Positions 30,891 through 36,728 of a stretch of 64,000 bases of DNA are shown here, in pieces. The position numbers and the translations under genes were made by a program. Within the stretch, counting starts at the first letter, position 1. Each line of letters starts with the position of its first letter. The DNA comes from Nitrosococcus watsonii C-113 (GTDB taxonomy: Bacteria; Pseudomonadota; Gammaproteobacteria; Nitrosococcales; Nitrosococcaceae): NCBI RefSeq assembly GCF_000143085.1, contig NC_014315.1, forward strand, positions 1,766,001-1,830,000, in the 5' to 3' direction. Below the pieces are notes generated by a model. It was not told where the DNA came from, did not search any database, and saw only the letters and a program-made list of their open reading frames with translations.

Positions 30891-33180
30891 ATGAGTGACG
30901 AATTTTTCAAAAAGCCGATACTCAATTCACCCTATGAATACCCTTCCTTTCATTGGGAGATAGTGGATGGGCTGCCGACCCACAATATCGTTAACTCCCG
31001 CCGAAGAGCGGAATTCATCACGCCCATTCCCAAGCCCAGGAAGCGCAAGGGTTCAAAGTCGCAAGACTTATTCGACGAAAGCCTGGGTCTAGGTGGCGGT
31101 AGCCAGAAGTACGACCCGATCTCCATTATCAACGAACTTCGCGGCCACGTGGATGCTTGGCGGAAATTGCCAAGCGAGCGGGACTGGCGGGTAACACCCG
31201 AGACCGCCCGGTTATTGCGGCACTGGCGCCATTATGAATTCAAGGGTATTCGCCCCTTCTTCTGCCAAGTGGAAGCCGTGGAAGTGGCTATTTGGCTCAC
31301 GGAGGTGGCCCCTAAATTTGGCCAAACAGGCAAGCAATTTCTCGATTACTTAAAGAATGCGAACGCCGACGCCAACCCCGGTTTGCTGCGGCTTGCGCTG
31401 AAACTGGCCACGGGCGCGGGCAAGACCACGGTCATGTCCATGCTGATTGCATGGCAAACGATTAACGCAGTGCGTCAGCCGGCAAGATCGTGATTACCAA
31501 CTACCACGCCTTCAAGCCGCGCGAACGCATGGCTATCTCCAAAGGCGGGCGGGCGCTTCTCAAGGGCAAACGAGGCGAAGAACTCAATACCCTGGAAACT
31601 GAAGGCCAGATGTTGCAACGGGTCATGCCGGAGCTAATGGGCATGAAGAACGTCATGGTATTGAACGATGAAGCTCACCACTGTTACCGGGAAAAGCCCG
31701 GCGAGGACGAAGAAGGGGCGCTGAAGGGGGATGACAAGAAAGAAGCCGAGAGCAACCGGGAAGCGGCGCGGCTTTGGATTTTCGGGCTGGAAATCGTCGC
31801 CAGGAAAATTGGCCTTAACCGGGTCATCGATCTATCGGCAACGCCTTTTTTTCTCAGCGGTTCCGGGTATGCCGAGGGGACCTTATTCCCCTGGACTATG
31901 AGCGATTTTTCCCTCATGGATGCCATTGAATGCGGCATCGTCAAATTGCCCCGGGTGCCGGTGGCGGACAACATCCCCGGCGCTGAGATGCCCAAATTCC
32001 GGGAATTGTGGAAACACATCGGCGCTAGGATGCCCAAAAAAGGCCGGAGCAAAGGGGCGAAACTCGACCCGCTTAGCCTTCCCGTCGAACTGCAAACGGC
32101 CCTGGAAGCATTGTACGGCCACTACGAAAAGACCTTTTCACGGCCAAGCCCGTGGTCGCGCCCCCTCAGCCGCCACGGGAAACCATCCATGTCAAAGCGG
32201 TGCGCCCGGAGCGGGACGCTCTAGAAATTCGTTTCCCCCGGGTCAGCGGCTATCGGGTCGAGCTGCCGGAAGAAAAACTGACGGCAGAATTCAACGAAGA
32301 CTCCGTGCTTGAGTTGACCCCGGATTTGGTGGGTCCATCCGTTACCCGCAATGCGGGCATTATTGGCGAGGCGGTTGATTTGAACTTGATCCATACGGGT
32401 AATGTGCGTCCTTCAACGCTGCTCTTCCATTTAACTCAACGGTTGCTCTATACGAAATGGCGTGACCCCGGCGAAGCGCCGAAACTCCACCTGTTCGGTC
32501 AGCTCAAGCGGATTACCAAACAATGGCTGGAGGGATATCTCGTCTGCAAGGGGGGGACTTATCCGGCGCAACTCCTGTACCAGGAACTGGCCGACATGGC
32601 CTGCTCCAGAATCACCGCCGCCATTACCCAGGCGGAACAAAGCAGGGACCGACCCATCAAGGTTTTGCTCGATCCCTACAATCCGACGGGTTCAACCCTC
32701 CATGTCAATTTCAATACCTCGAAAACCGAACGGTGGGAAACCCATCCGCTGAAATCCCATATTAATTGGGTCATTCTGGATAGCGACTGGGAAGCCGAGT
32801 TTTGCCGGGTGGCGGAAGCCCACGAACAGGTGATTGCTTACGTCAAGAATCACAGTCTGGGTTTGGAAGTGCCCTATCGCTATGGTTCCGAAACGCGGAA
32901 ATACCGCCCGGACTTCCTTGTCCAGATCGATGATGGCCAGGATGATCCCTTGAATCTGATTGTGGAAATCAAAGGTTATCGCCGGGAAGATGCCAAGGAA
33001 AAAAAGCTCACCATGGATACTTACTGGATTCCGGGCGTGAACAATCTAAAAAGCTACGGGCGATGGGCCTTCGCGGAATTCGGGGATGTCTTTGAAATGC
33101 AGCATGCCTTTGCAAGGAAAGTCGAACAAACGTTTAACGAGATGATCAAAACTGTGAGCGTACCCAAAAACACACTATGA
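30891..33180 (+). pseudogene. type III restriction endonuclease subunit (Res), two internal deletions
   Basis: Three frames spell parts of one Res protein. Part 1 (30891-31484) ends with Walker A, LKLATGAGKTTVMSMLIAW. Part 2 (31488-32137) begins IVITNYHAFKPRERM and carries motif II as VLNDEAHHCYREKP and motif III as IDLSATPFF. Part 3 (32137-33180) begins FTAKPVVAPPQPPRE and carries the nuclease motif YRPDFLVQI...LIVEIKGY. Between parts 1 and 2 the short segment after Walker A is missing. Between 2 and 3 the helicase C-terminal domain (motifs IV-VI, perhaps 200 residues) is missing. Both joins change the frame. Restriction activity must be lost. Comparison with intact homologues is from memory, so deletion sizes are estimates. 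Confidence 0.85.
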
Positions 33181-33210
33181 TGGTGTACACGAACAAAATG
33201 AGAGATGGCC

Positions 33211-33435
33211 ATGAAAAACATTACCCTAAGCGCCGATGAGCACCTGATTGAAGCTGCCCGTCAGCGAGCTGCCGCTGAGCACACGACCTTGAATGCCAAA
33301 TTTCGGGAATGGCTGGAAGACTATGTACAACGTCAGCGGCAGGCGGATGAAGCGATAGCCTTCATCAGGGAGTTGAGAAAACACGTGCGTACCGGTGGCC
33401 GTAAATTCACACGGGATGAGATGAATGAGCGTTAA
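33211..33435 (+). CDS. orphan ribbon-helix-helix type antitoxin
   Basis: 74 aa from the ATG at 33211 (MKNITLSADEHLIEAARQRA); an ATG two codons earlier is possible. The N-terminal strand and helix are those of RHH antitoxins paired with PIN toxins; the C-terminal tail is LRKHVRTGGRKFTRDEMNER. The overlapping frame at its end starts MSVNFF, the usual beginning of the partner PIN toxin, but stops after nine codons (MSVNFFESE). So only the toxin's first residues survive and the antitoxin is alone. Confidence 0.75.
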   Translation: MKNITLSADEHLIEAARQRAAAEHTTLNAKFREWLEDYVQRQRQADEAIAFIRELRKHVRTGGRKFTRDEMNER

Positions 33436-33462: not shown

Positions 33463-33665
33463 ATGAAGAACATCACTTTGAGCGCCGATGAACACCTGAT
33501 TGAAGTCGCCCGTCAGCGGGCTGCCGCTGAACACACGACATTAAATGAACAATATACGCACGCAAACAACAGCAGCTACGTTTTTATGACGACGCCATTA
33601 AGGAACTGCAAGGCCAACTTAAGGTTGGGCGTAAATTAAGCCGGGAAGAAATGAATGAGCGTTGA
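33463..33665 (+). pseudogene. second, degraded copy of the same antitoxin
   Basis: The first 27 codons repeat the preceding gene almost exactly (MKNITLSADEHLIEVARQRA, then AAEHTTLN). The middle is lost with a change of frame, and the ending VGRKLSREEMNER appears in another frame. The overlapping frame again begins like the partner toxin, MSVERFF, then runs into unrelated sequence that leads to mod. So this locus is a tandem duplication of an antitoxin-toxin unit from which both toxins were removed. Confidence 0.75.
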
Positions 33666-33686: not shown

Positions 33687-36600
33687 ATGGCGCGCAAGAA
33701 AATAACAAAAAAACGGATAGAAACCCTAACCCATGACGATGCTGCTCGGGTAAATATCCCCACCGCGGAATATGAAGCCATGCTCCATCAAAAAGACAAA
33801 AGCCCGATTCCCGTGCCCTACAAGCGGCGCAACCGGGATCTTGATCCGCAATTAGTCTGGCGGGGCAAGGATGAGCAGGACTGGTCCGATCTCGTTGTCC
33901 ATGCGCCGCCCCTTTATATTCAGGAAAAAGTCCATCCCAAGGCGTTGATTGACGACTTGCGCCGGCAGTCAGTGGCGAGTGGCGAGCGGTCAGTGGATAG
34001 GGAGCAACAGCTTGATCTGTTCGCCGACTTTAATGGCCTGCCGGACGAAGCAGCAAAAACCGAGTTTTATCAGCATGAAGCTCACTGGTCCAACCGGATG
34101 ATTTTGGGCGACAGCCTTCAGGTGATGGCGTCGTTAGCGGAGCGGGAAGGCTTGCGGGGCAAAGTGCAATGTATTTATTTCGATCCCCCTTACGGCATCA
34201 AATTTAATTCCAATTTCCAATGGTCCACCACCAGTCGCGATGTCAAGGACGGCAATGTACAGCACATCACGCGAGAGCCGGAGCAGGTCAAGGCGTTTCG
34301 GGATACCTGGCGGGATGGAATTCATTCCTACCTAACTTACTTGCGGGATCGGTTAACGGTGGCACGGGATTTGTTGACAGATTCGGGTTCGATTTTCGTG
34401 CAGATTGGGGATGAGAATGTGCATCGGGTACGGGCTTTGATGGATGAAGTTTTTGGAGATGTGAATTTTGTTAGTGAAATAGTTTTCCAAAAAACGGGAA
34501 GTCAGCCCGGATCAATTATTGGTAATATTTCGGACTATATCCTTTGGTTCGCTAAAAGAAAGCAAAATGCAAAAGTAAGAAATATTTTTTTACCCAAAGA
34601 TGGAGGAGAAGGGGATTTTTCACCTGATCCGTTAACTTCAGATGGTGCATCTGAAAAAGGAACCGCTAATTTCTATTTCCAAGGACAAATTTTTCATCCA
34701 GGCAAAAAGGCGCATTGGAAGACTACTCTTGGTGGCATGGAAATATTAGCGCGTGCCGGCAGGATTATAAAACAAAGAAAGCAGATTCGTTTAAGAAAAT
34801 ATTGGGTTGATAATCCAGTCAAGACCTTAACAAATATATGGACTGATAGCGGAGGCGCATCAAATGTCATATATGTTGTTCAAACTAATGAAAAGATTCC
34901 TCAGCGCTGCCTTCTAATGTCCACCGACCCCGGCGATCTCGTCCTCGATCCCACCTGCGGCTCCGGCACTACCGCCTACGTCGCCGAGCAATGGGGACGG
35001 CGCTGGATAACCATTGATACCTCCCGCGTCGCGCTGGCGCTTGCCCGGTCCCGAATCATGGGCGCCCGCTATCCTTATTATCTCTTGGTGGATTCCAAGG
35101 AGGGCGTTCTTAAGGAAGCGGAAATTACCCGCACCGCGCCATCAACCAAGCCCACCACTGAAAATATCCGTTACGGGTTTGTTTATGAGCGCGTGCCCCA
35201 TATTACCCTGAAGTCCATCGCCAATAACGCCGAGATTGACGTGATTTGGGATAACTACCACGAAAAGCTGGAGCCATTGTTGCGCGACTTGTCACGCATG
35301 ATTGGTGAGAAGTGGATAGTAACCAGCAGGAAAGCTAGCCACGCATCACTTTCCACTGATCACTCCCTCGCCGAGTGGGAAGTGCCGCGCGAATTTCCCG
35401 CCGACTGGCCGGAAGAAGCCAAAACGCTGCACCAAGACTTCTGGCGGGCGAGGGTCGCGCGCCAGCGCGAAATCGACGCCTCCATTGCCGCCAAGGCGGA
35501 TTTTGAATATCTCTACGACAAACCCTACGAAGATAAAAATAAAGTTCGCGTTGCCGGTCCCTTCACCGTTGAAAGTATTTCTCCCCATCGGGCGCTGACG
35601 GTCGGCGCAGATGATGAACTGATCGACCCCGCGCACCAGAAGAAAGTCTTCGACGATGAACAGGACTTTGCCCAAATTATTTTGGAAAACCTGAAAACCG
35701 CGGGCGTCCAGCAAGCCCACAAGGACGACAAAATTAACTTTATCTCCCTGACTCCTTGGCCGGGCGAGCTGGTTTGCGCCGAAGGCGTGTTTGAAGCGGC
35801 CAACGGCCAACCCACGCTAGCCACTCATCACCAACCACCCACCACTCAACAGCGCGCGGCGATTTTCATCGGCCCGGAATTCGGCACGGTTTCCCGCCCG
35901 GATCTGGTCCGGGCGGCGAGAGAAGCCGCCGATGGGGGTTTTGATGTCCTGATTGCCTGCGCCTTTAACTATGACGCCCACTCCACCGAATTTGAAAAGC
36001 TTGGCCGGGTCCCGGTTTTGAAAGCCCGCATGAATGCCGATCTGCACATGGCCGATGATCTGAAAAATACCGGCAAAGGGAATCTATTTGTTATTTTCGG
36101 TGAGCCGGATGTGGAAGTGGTGAGTGGCCAGTGGCTAGTGGCAAGTGATGGCGGAATAGTGGTGAATTATGCGCAGTGTCAAAAACTATCGGGACTTGGA
36201 AGTTTGGAAAAAATCAATGAACTTGGCCGAACGGATTTACAATATTTCAAAGTCCTTTCCGCCGGTGATAGCAATGGAGGCGCTCAATCGAATAGAACAG
36301 CAAACAACGGAGATCAGCTGTATGCTCGCTGGCCTCAAGCGGTCGCTGCAATCGAGGCGCTGACCGAAGTTGATTTTCCGCTGTCACTTACCACGGATCA
36401 CTACGCACAAGTCACGCTCCATGGCGTGGATGTTTTTCATCCCAACACCGGAGAGGTCAGAAGCGATGACGCGGACGGGATAGCCTGCTGGTTTATCGAC
36501 ACCGACTATAACGAGGAAAGTTTTTTTGTTCGCCAGGCTTATTTTCTCAGCGCCAACGATCCCTACAAATCGCTGAAGACCACCCTCAAGGCGGAGATTA

Positions 36601-36728
36601 ATCAGGAAGCATGGGAAACGCTGAACAGCGATATCTCCCGCCCCTTTAAAAAGCCTAGGAGCGGCCGGATTGCCGTAAAAGTGATTAACCACTTGGGCGA
36701 TGAAGTGATGAAGGTCTACAAAATATAA
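33687..36728 (+). CDS. type III DNA methyltransferase (Mod) carrying in-frame repeat insertions
   Basis: 1013 aa. Beta-class amino-methyltransferase order: catalytic DPPY at residues 166-169 (IYFDPPYGIKFN), target-recognition region about 250-410, then the SAM-binding motif DPTCGSGTT starting at residue 421. The C-terminal third is the long Mod tail ending in GRIAVKVINHLGDEVMKV, so both ends are intact. Four segments look foreign: VASGERSVD (about 96-104), ASHASLSTDHSLAEW, TLATHHQPPTTQQ and VVSGQWLVASDGG. The last begins a roughly 300-bp insertion containing a remnant of another gene (see 36169). The target-recognition part is notably AT-rich. Res is broken, so if active this is a solitary methylase. 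Confidence 0.85.
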   Translation: MARKKITKKRIETLTHDDAARVNIPTAEYEAMLHQKDKSPIPVPYKRRNRDLDPQLVWRGKDEQDWSDLVVHAPPLYIQEKVHPKALIDDLRRQSVASGERSVDREQQLDLFADFNGLPDEAAKTEFYQHEAHWSNRMILGDSLQVMASLAEREGLRGKVQCIYFDPPYGIKFNSNFQWSTTSRDVKDGNVQHITREPEQVKAFRDTWRDGIHSYLTYLRDRLTVARDLLTDSGSIFVQIGDENVHRVRALMDEVFGDVNFVSEIVFQKTGSQPGSIIGNISDYILWFAKRKQNAKVRNIFLPKDGGEGDFSPDPLTSDGASEKGTANFYFQGQIFHPGKKAHWKTTLGGMEILARAGRIIKQRKQIRLRKYWVDNPVKTLTNIWTDSGGASNVIYVVQTNEKIPQRCLLMSTDPGDLVLDPTCGSGTTAYVAEQWGRRWITIDTSRVALALARSRIMGARYPYYLLVDSKEGVLKEAEITRTAPSTKPTTENIRYGFVYERVPHITLKSIANNAEIDVIWDNYHEKLEPLLRDLSRMIGEKWIVTSRKASHASLSTDHSLAEWEVPREFPADWPEEAKTLHQDFWRARVARQREIDASIAAKADFEYLYDKPYEDKNKVRVAGPFTVESISPHRALTVGADDELIDPAHQKKVFDDEQDFAQIILENLKTAGVQQAHKDDKINFISLTPWPGELVCAEGVFEAANGQPTLATHHQPPTTQQRAAIFIGPEFGTVSRPDLVRAAREAADGGFDVLIACAFNYDAHSTEFEKLGRVPVLKARMNADLHMADDLKNTGKGNLFVIFGEPDVEVVSGQWLVASDGGIVVNYAQCQKLSGLGSLEKINELGRTDLQYFKVLSAGDSNGGAQSNRTANNGDQLYARWPQAVAAIEALTEVDFPLSLTTDHYAQVTLHGVDVFHPNTGEVRSDDADGIACWFIDTDYNEESFFVRQAYFLSANDPYKSLKTTLKAEINQEAWETLNSDISRPFKKPRSGRIAVKVINHLGDEVMKVYKI
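36121..36154 (+). repeat. AGTG-rich mini-repeat, left copy at the S23 insertion
   Basis: Heptad-like units GAGTGGCC-AGTGGCT-AGTGGCA-AGTGATG, ending AAGTGATGGCGG (36143-36154). The same end is found inverted at 36378-36389 (CCGCTGTCACTT), matching 10 of 12 bases, so the two bound the inserted segment. Encodes VSGQWLVASDGG in the mod frame. Confidence 0.75.
36169..36363 (+). pseudogene. S23/IVS-type four-helix-bundle protein, internally deleted, inside mod
   Basis: A 64-codon frame, +1 relative to mod, starts with ATG and reads KNYRDLEVWKKSMNLAERIY then NISKSFP, the unmistakable N-terminus of the four-helix-bundle family (PF05635) known from 23S rRNA intervening sequences and as free-standing genes. 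It continues NRIEQQTTEISCMLAGLKRS-LQ, the family's C-terminal helix, and stops. Intact members are about 115-125 residues, so the two central helices are gone. The reading frame of mod stays open across the whole insertion. Flanked by inverted AGTG-rich repeats. Confidence 0.78.
36378..36404 (-). repeat. AGTG-rich mini-repeat, right inverted copy
   Basis: On the minus strand reads AGTGATCC-GTGGTAAGTGACAGCGG, the inverse of the left copy. Encodes LSLTTDHY in the mod frame. Directly after it the conserved mod sequence resumes with VTLHGVDVFHPNTGEV. Confidence 0.72.

Follow-up and report, generated by a model that had tools for sequence, protein, structure and literature searches.

The insert at positions 36113-36404 in the DNA methyltransferase gene mod of Nitrosococcus watsonii C-113 is probably a copy of a mobile element, a small hairpin of the intervening sequence (IVS)/S23 type, which has suffered an internal deletion and is decaying. 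Both ends of an S23 gene (PF05635) are present in this insert, and at most of the S23 loci compared here the gene stands between two flanks that match as inverted repeats, in many cases arrays of tandem 7- or 8-nt units. Positions refer to the window, i.e., the whole stretch of 64,000 nucleotides that was analysed (NC_014315.1, positions 1,766,001 to 1,830,000), unless another source is given.

33687-36728, plus strand: mod, DNA methyltransferase gene (PF01555) and host of the inserts; open frame of 1013 aa, N6_N4_Mtase 123.6 bits
33966-33999, plus strand: AGTGGCG array in a part of mod that varies in length; from pattern and alignment
35316-35369, minus strand: heptad-only insert in mod, 18 aa (54 nt); missing in six homologues, pattern matches
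35808-35846, minus strand: heptad-like insert in mod, 13 aa (39 nt), with degenerate units; missing in six homologues, letters read
36113-36150, plus strand: left arm, tandem 7-nt array AGTGGTG AGTGGCC AGTGGCT AGTGGCA AGTG; from the lag-7 scan and the genome-wide pattern
36169-36264, plus strand: 5' end of the S23 gene, with 32 codons in frame +1 relative to mod; PF05635 profile positions 1-24, shuffle test
36265-36363, plus strand: 3' end of the S23 gene with stop codon, about 58-60 codons being lost before it; S23 residues about 90-119
36382-36404, minus strand: right arm, inverted heptads (TGTCACTTACCACGGATCACTAC); one-mismatch pattern match at genome positions 1802385-1802402, letters read

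The insert in mod

The mod protein was searched against 150 genomes of the phylum, which gave matches in 76, mostly distant. In all five homologues that span the site (L053-L057), 16 residues separate GEPD from GVDVF, where the protein of the window has 104, which corresponds to a net gain of 88 residues, or 264 nt. It is clear that the insert is lacking in these other mod proteins, as the preliminary description had expected, and that the mod frame is open across the whole of 36113-36404, the gain being close to the approximately 90 residues given there. The further inserts of 18 and 13 residues also preserve the frame and have no counterpart in any of the six aligned homologues. The units at 35808-35846 are degenerate and gave no match in the genome-wide pattern search. 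The array at 33966-33999 was not scored as an insert, because the homologues are equally long or longer there.

The heptads are concentrated in mod. A genome-wide search for AGTGRNNAGTGRNNAGTG with at most one mismatch gave 9 matches, and 8 of them lie within mod, overlapping in four clusters; the reversed pattern, used as control, gave 3. A scan at lag 7 covered 464 kb, consisting of the window and twenty stretches of 20 kb, one of them picked for holding the other S23 gene; it found six strong arrays, five of them next to the only full S23 gene of the genome and the sixth in mod, and other lags at the same threshold gave 0 to 3 arrays in the same 464 kb.

The +1 frame at 36169-36363 encodes 64 aa. 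It matches PF05635 at profile positions 1-24 of 106 only, with 28.8 bits for a cut-off of 33.8 (22.7 bits in the whole-genome search). Given that this score is under the curated cut-off, the remnant derives from a PF05635 gene without itself belonging to the family. Its two halves were compared separately with 136 S23 proteins, with 200 shuffles as control. The first 32 residues correspond to S23 residues about 2-30, with a best score of 102 versus 48 for the best shuffle, and the last 32 to residues about 90-119, passing narrowly with 52 versus 48. Since both ends beat all 200 shuffles, the unit is an S23 gene that lacks about 58-60 codons in its centre, which agrees with the earlier reading of two ends without their middle. 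That the C-terminal half barely exceeds the shuffles counts against the hairpin-element reading. The arms in the window are short and degenerate, and the copy lies in mod and not in 23S rRNA, the location typical of an IVS.

The other S23 gene of this genome (L001) scores 132.6 bits with PF05635, above the cut-off, and lies between GTTCTGG heptads and inverse copies of them; its left arm is about 400 nt distant, within the adjacent gene. The preliminary description had proposed to look for inverted AGTG repeats at other S23 genes of the genome; the flanks found here are inverted heptads, but of a different heptamer. These GTTCTGG flanks and the two other heptad inserts of mod had been overlooked. 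Given that GTTCTGG is found at L001 and AGTG heptads in mod, each S23 of this genome stands among arrays of its own unit. The neighbour of L001, a gene of 1326 aa (L003 6215-10195, genome 44215-48195), has four inserts with heptads, of 10, 15, 3 and 6 residues, all of them in frame and without counterpart in five homologues, and together with the next gene, which is methyltransferase-like, it looks like a defence island.

Upstream of mod, at 30891-33180, a type III-like restriction gene apparently falls into three ORFs that overlap and have lengths of 200, 244 and 342 aa, with a ResIII-like match of 15.2 bits that is under its cut-off and an RE_endonuc match above its own. Because of this apparent split, the restriction partner may be broken and selection on the restriction/mod pair may be relaxed. 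Two small adjacent ORFs (33205-33435 and 33463-33639) have near-identical first 28 residues (MKNITLSADEHLIEAARQRAAAEHTTLN) and appear, by eye, to be an antitoxin-like tandem duplication.

Inverted arms around S23 genes across phyla

S23 loci were sampled from the phylum (27), from viral contigs (34, including near duplicates) and from named genomes of many phyla (80). The last set holds the best 80 of 585 confirmed loci, and given that the query was an alignment of three S23 proteins, it leans to that S23 subfamily. Arrays of period 7, defined by at least 16/21 matches within 175 nt to the left or 210 nt to the right of S23, were found on the left at 8/26 loci of the phylum, 24/34 viral loci and 26/77 named loci, and on the right at 15/26, 20/34 and 39/77, respectively. 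Windows about 1 kb away gave 0/51, 1/61 and 2/145. Period 8 comes second, with 10 arrays on the left and 12 on the right of 77 loci in the named set; periods 4, 5, 6, 9, 10 and 11 gave 0 to 3, and period 14 is a harmonic.

When the left flank was aligned with the reverse complement of the right flank, inverted terminal repeats around the S23 ORF, by which an IVS is recognised, were found with a score of at least 14 at 86 of the 136 loci, compared with 12/136 for the direct orientation. As controls, shuffled flanks gave 0/680 and foreign partners 14/680, the latter because loci can share a unit. The other 50/136 loci miss this threshold, some of them apparently by degeneration (L040-L042), and they count against the element reading. 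Homologous mod proteins without the approximately 90 residues, and other S23 genes that do have flanking repeats, are therefore what is found on the two points at which the preliminary description was open to refutation. Its inverted ends proved to be generally associated with S23 genes; the fixed AGTG sequence did not, given that the unit varies by locus (GGCTTAA, GGCAGTA, AGTAGTG, GGCAATA, AGTTGACG and others).

The 5' arm has more G than C at 74 of the 86 inverted-repeat loci, and as much at 4. Median gaps are 25 nt from the 5' arm to the start codon and 12 nt from the stop codon to the 3' arm. The most recurrent dinucleotide of the arms is AG, found in 60 of 83 distinct loci and the top word in about 25; speculatively, this recurrence hints that a ring protein may read spaced motifs.

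Plasmids also carry S23, with 23 records matched and arms in three of the four loci examined, the one without arms being that of a Calothrix plasmid (L358). On the Nostoc edaphicum plasmid pNe_5 (L356 1480-1848), the S23 gene has arms of the GTAGGGA type and separates the genes for the two subunits of ribonucleotide reductase, running opposite to both. On the Azospirillum lipoferum plasmid AZO_p2 (L357 1501-1764), an S23 match with inverted arms corresponds to no gene in the plasmid table. No arms are visible at two PF05635 hits below the cut-off (L047, L048), and phage records searched with one S23 query gave no match. An exact 17-mer of 23S rRNA was found in none of the 355 loci searched, and for this reason the tie to rRNA IVSs rests on the published IVS of Coxiella.

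Occupied and empty sites in two genera

In genus g57, the complete stretch of L024 with its flanks was found in 18 of 61 genomes, the last 22 of the 61 being known from alignment pieces only. The element has the form (GGCAGTA)n-S23-(TACTGCC)n and lies between two genes, with about 430-580 nt between the anchors, S23 as the sole long frame and no transposase. Among 21 other sites that were examined closely, 19 are empty, with 32-42 nt between the anchors, and the site in G214 still has the last part of S23 together with about two right-arm units; the row of L227 (G197) was left out of this comparison. One of the 21 (L248, in G158) holds an unrelated insert, a short palindrome without heptads, and the junction may therefore attract small hairpins. 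Perfect heptad runs at this site comprise 0 to 15 units, and array length differs between species. On our reading, the L024 array supplies the stop codon of the preceding gene, and a GGGAG stretch resembling a ribosome site is retained before the next gene. Inspection by eye of the g57 junctions, which are in divergent intergenic DNA, revealed no target-site duplication. Repeated loss of an old element, instead of repeated gain, may account for the pattern at this site; no new copy was seen to arise, which counts against the mobile-element reading.

A second case is found in genus g38, where an element (L035) lies between genes that we read as ftsB-like and gltX-like. It is whole in 4 of 23 genomes and interrupted in one (G124). 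Fourteen of the 23 genomes have both flanks and nothing like the element between them, 12 with a gap of 40-49 nt and the remaining two with flanks 117 and 161 nt apart.

Arrays without S23 in genus g57

The unit (GGCAGTA)3 occurs in 45 of the 61 g57 genomes, with up to 118 overlapping matches, and its reversed control gave 0 in all; S23 is present in 48. Nineteen further GGCAGTA arrays, taken from the top of the match listing for g57, were inspected, and none has S23 within 2.6 kb. A converging inverted partner stands within about 60 nt of 18 of these 19 arrays, and diverging partners were not found (0). At all 40 other g57 S23 loci examined, the flanks are inverted with a score of at least 11.5 (35.0 for L279 and 17.5 for L280), with units that include GCGARTA, GTGAATG, AGTAGTG and the 8-mers GGGCAGTA and GGGGAGTA.

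Solo arrays, counted after subtraction of S23's own arrays, are more numerous in genomes where S23 carries the same unit, in a test that ignores the kinship of the genomes and for which 31 more S23 loci (L316-L346) were used solely for typing units. Genomes where S23 has the unit versus those where it does not gave means of 23.9 versus 8.2 for GGCAGTA (17 versus 44 genomes, p 0.0065), 12.7 versus 4.3 for GCGARTA (14 versus 47, p 0.0004) and 18.0 versus 7.8 for GGGCAGTA (14 versus 47, p 0.005). With the three units pooled, the median is 34 in genomes with S23 and 14 in those without (p 0.0004). Solo arrays are present in 11 of the 13 genomes without S23, which counts against the element reading.

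Constraint, orientation and predicted fold

At the g57 site, S23 has a median dN/dS of 0.074 and dS of 0.76 (153 pairs of 18 sequences), and is under strong purifying selection while the arrays vary freely. Orientation was counted at 97 loci with the longest open frames as proxy for the neighbouring genes, 10 loci that were too short and the viral loci being left out: S23 runs with both neighbours at 78, against both at 3 and is mixed at 16. The transcript of L024 is predicted to fold with an outer stem of 48 bp and the ORF in the loop (z -10.9). The constraint, the sense bias and the stem fit an element that lives in host transcripts as rRNA IVSs do, with a protein that is really used. Sequence relatives of S23 with structures are 2gsc (XCC0516) and 2rld; judging by its name, XCC0516 presumably comes from the Xanthomonas campestris genome that Rehm et al. 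used for their GGGAATC array counts.

Discussion

These observations are best described by an IVS-type hairpin element with a master copy that carries S23 and satellites that do not, in a layout like that of RAYT/REPIN, a reading that we consider likely. In an intact element, an S23 gene of about 360 nt would stand between two arms of tandem 7- or 8-mers, of which the 5' one is usually G-rich and the 3' one is made up of the inverted units. The transcript of such an element would close, like that of rRNA IVSs, into a long stem whose loop contains the S23 ORF. The evenly spaced units of one arm may be bound by the S23 protein, and S23 copies could act in trans on S23-less satellites. In the window, such an element would have entered mod and then lost the middle of S23; the copy may have been tolerated because the mod frame stayed open. 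For mobilisation, most weight is given to a process of host enzymes with S23 as a putative binding protein. The mobile unit able to enter coding genes that had been suggested earlier is thus retained in part: mod holds an insert with inverted repetitive ends that its homologues do not have, but the copy in the window is an internally deleted relic. TRAP, which binds spaced triplets, is a model for the way in which S23 might read its units. Tentatively, and with slightly less than even confidence, we propose the broader possibility that S23 genes are the master genes of bacteria-wide, transposase-free mobile hairpins with lineage-specific units of 7 or 8 nt, repeated in tandem in both arms, that pentameric S23 binds the spaced units of one strand and drives copying of elements and satellites, and that the heptamer excess and rRNA IVSs are one class of element.

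RAYT is an enzyme of the transposase type, and the Rickettsia palindromic elements are small palindromes inserted in protein genes without loss of the reading frame; to our knowledge the latter contain neither an S23 gene nor tandem heptads. The inserts described here resemble the Rickettsia elements as frame-keeping palindromic inserts and are set apart from them by the S23 gene and the tandem heptads. RAYT/REPIN of Pseudomonas, as outlined in PMC3116915, joins a conserved gene in single or few copies to a dispersed family of short hairpins. S23 elements have this layout of conserved gene and scattered hairpins in common with it, but the gene between the arms is S23, with no known catalytic domain, and the arms are tandem heptads. 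The closest counterpart is the 23S rRNA IVS of Coxiella, which according to PMC4990558 has GACAGAT heptads of strain-variable number before its S23 ORF, a terminal stem of 28 bp and RNase III cleavage in vitro; it is thus alike in having an S23 ORF between stem-forming terminal inverted repeats, with heptads before the ORF. It differs from the elements found here, which lie in protein genes and operons, have tandem 7- or 8-mers on both sides and come with S23-less satellites. The same paper suspects the Coxiella S23 ORF of decaying, cites a pentameric ring for Xanthomonas S23 and gives no known function for S23/IVP proteins (PMC4990558).

Arrays of this kind have been described for themselves. 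Rehm et al. (PMC4692102) report 7-nt tandem arrays that form 70 converging pairs in one Xanthomonas genome and 75 in another, 186 GGGAATC arrays with 70 converging pairs in X. campestris, and heptameric repeats over-represented, without detailed study, in many bacterial genomes. The repeats of Xanthomonas and Nostoc in that paper resemble S23 arms in being 7-nt tandem arrays with converging pairs, and the term S23 has 0 occurrences in it (PMC4692102). A general link between S23 and flanking heptad arrays was not found in open-licence PubMed Central, preprints excluded, the exception being the Coxiella heptads. IVS elements with S23 are already known; none of the open papers found describes the general architecture, in which S23 stands between inverted heptad arms and is accompanied by satellites.

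An explanation without mobility, in which polymerase slippage produces the arrays, S23 is an ordinary gene under its own hairpin and the other arrays are unrelated simple-sequence repeats, is unlikely. It agrees with the free variation of array length among species, and Rehm et al. cite slippage as a hypothesis for heptamers and find Xanthomonas arrays generally not tied to known mobile elements (PMC4692102). Nonetheless, slippage yields no converging inverted pairs such as those seen at 18 of 19 arrays, it places no arrays at sites where relatives have none, and solo units track the unit of the genome's S23. Even less probable is a retroelement, in which a reverse transcriptase copies the hairpin RNA and S23 acts like Avd, the protein of diversity-generating retroelements. 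Avd is a pentameric four-helix bundle that works with a reverse transcriptase and with template and variable repeats. S23 shares this fold, its pentameric ring being cited in PMC4990558, and the sense bias of S23 suits an RNA step. Reverse transcriptases (PF00078) do not track the arrays: 34 of the 61 g57 genomes, including the element carriers G055 and G071, have no PF00078 match that could work with an Avd-like protein as in diversity-generating retroelements, and the median array number is 32.0 with a match and 25.5 without (p 0.43; no association).

For the window itself, mod may have been acquired horizontally from an array-rich genome, so that the clustering would be that of the donor and the insert would never have moved here; we regard this as an open contender whose chances fall just short of even. 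AGTG heptads are confined to mod in this genome (8 of 9 matches), and the neighbourhood of the other S23, also beside a methyltransferase gene, has another unit. Such a transfer concerns the place of insertion and not the thing inserted, and is compatible with the hairpin element. Highly improbable is the removal of the insert from mod RNA or protein by splicing or otherwise, to which the preserved frame and the excision of IVSs from rRNA by RNase III, reported in PMC4990558, would lend themselves. RNase III cleavage would break an mRNA, and given that the mod frame is open, removal is not needed. At 54 and 39 nt, moreover, the two other inserts of mod are far below the known sizes of introns and inteins.

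For the hairpin-element reading, the link between S23 and heptads gives S23 a testable ligand, the repeat arm. It would explain the converging pairs of heptad arrays, may help to explain the excess of 7-nt repeats in bacterial genomes, and extends rRNA intervening sequences to operons and protein-coding genes. Inserts encoded by heptads can be part of annotated proteins, and S23 elements point to a class of mobile elements without a recognisable transposase.
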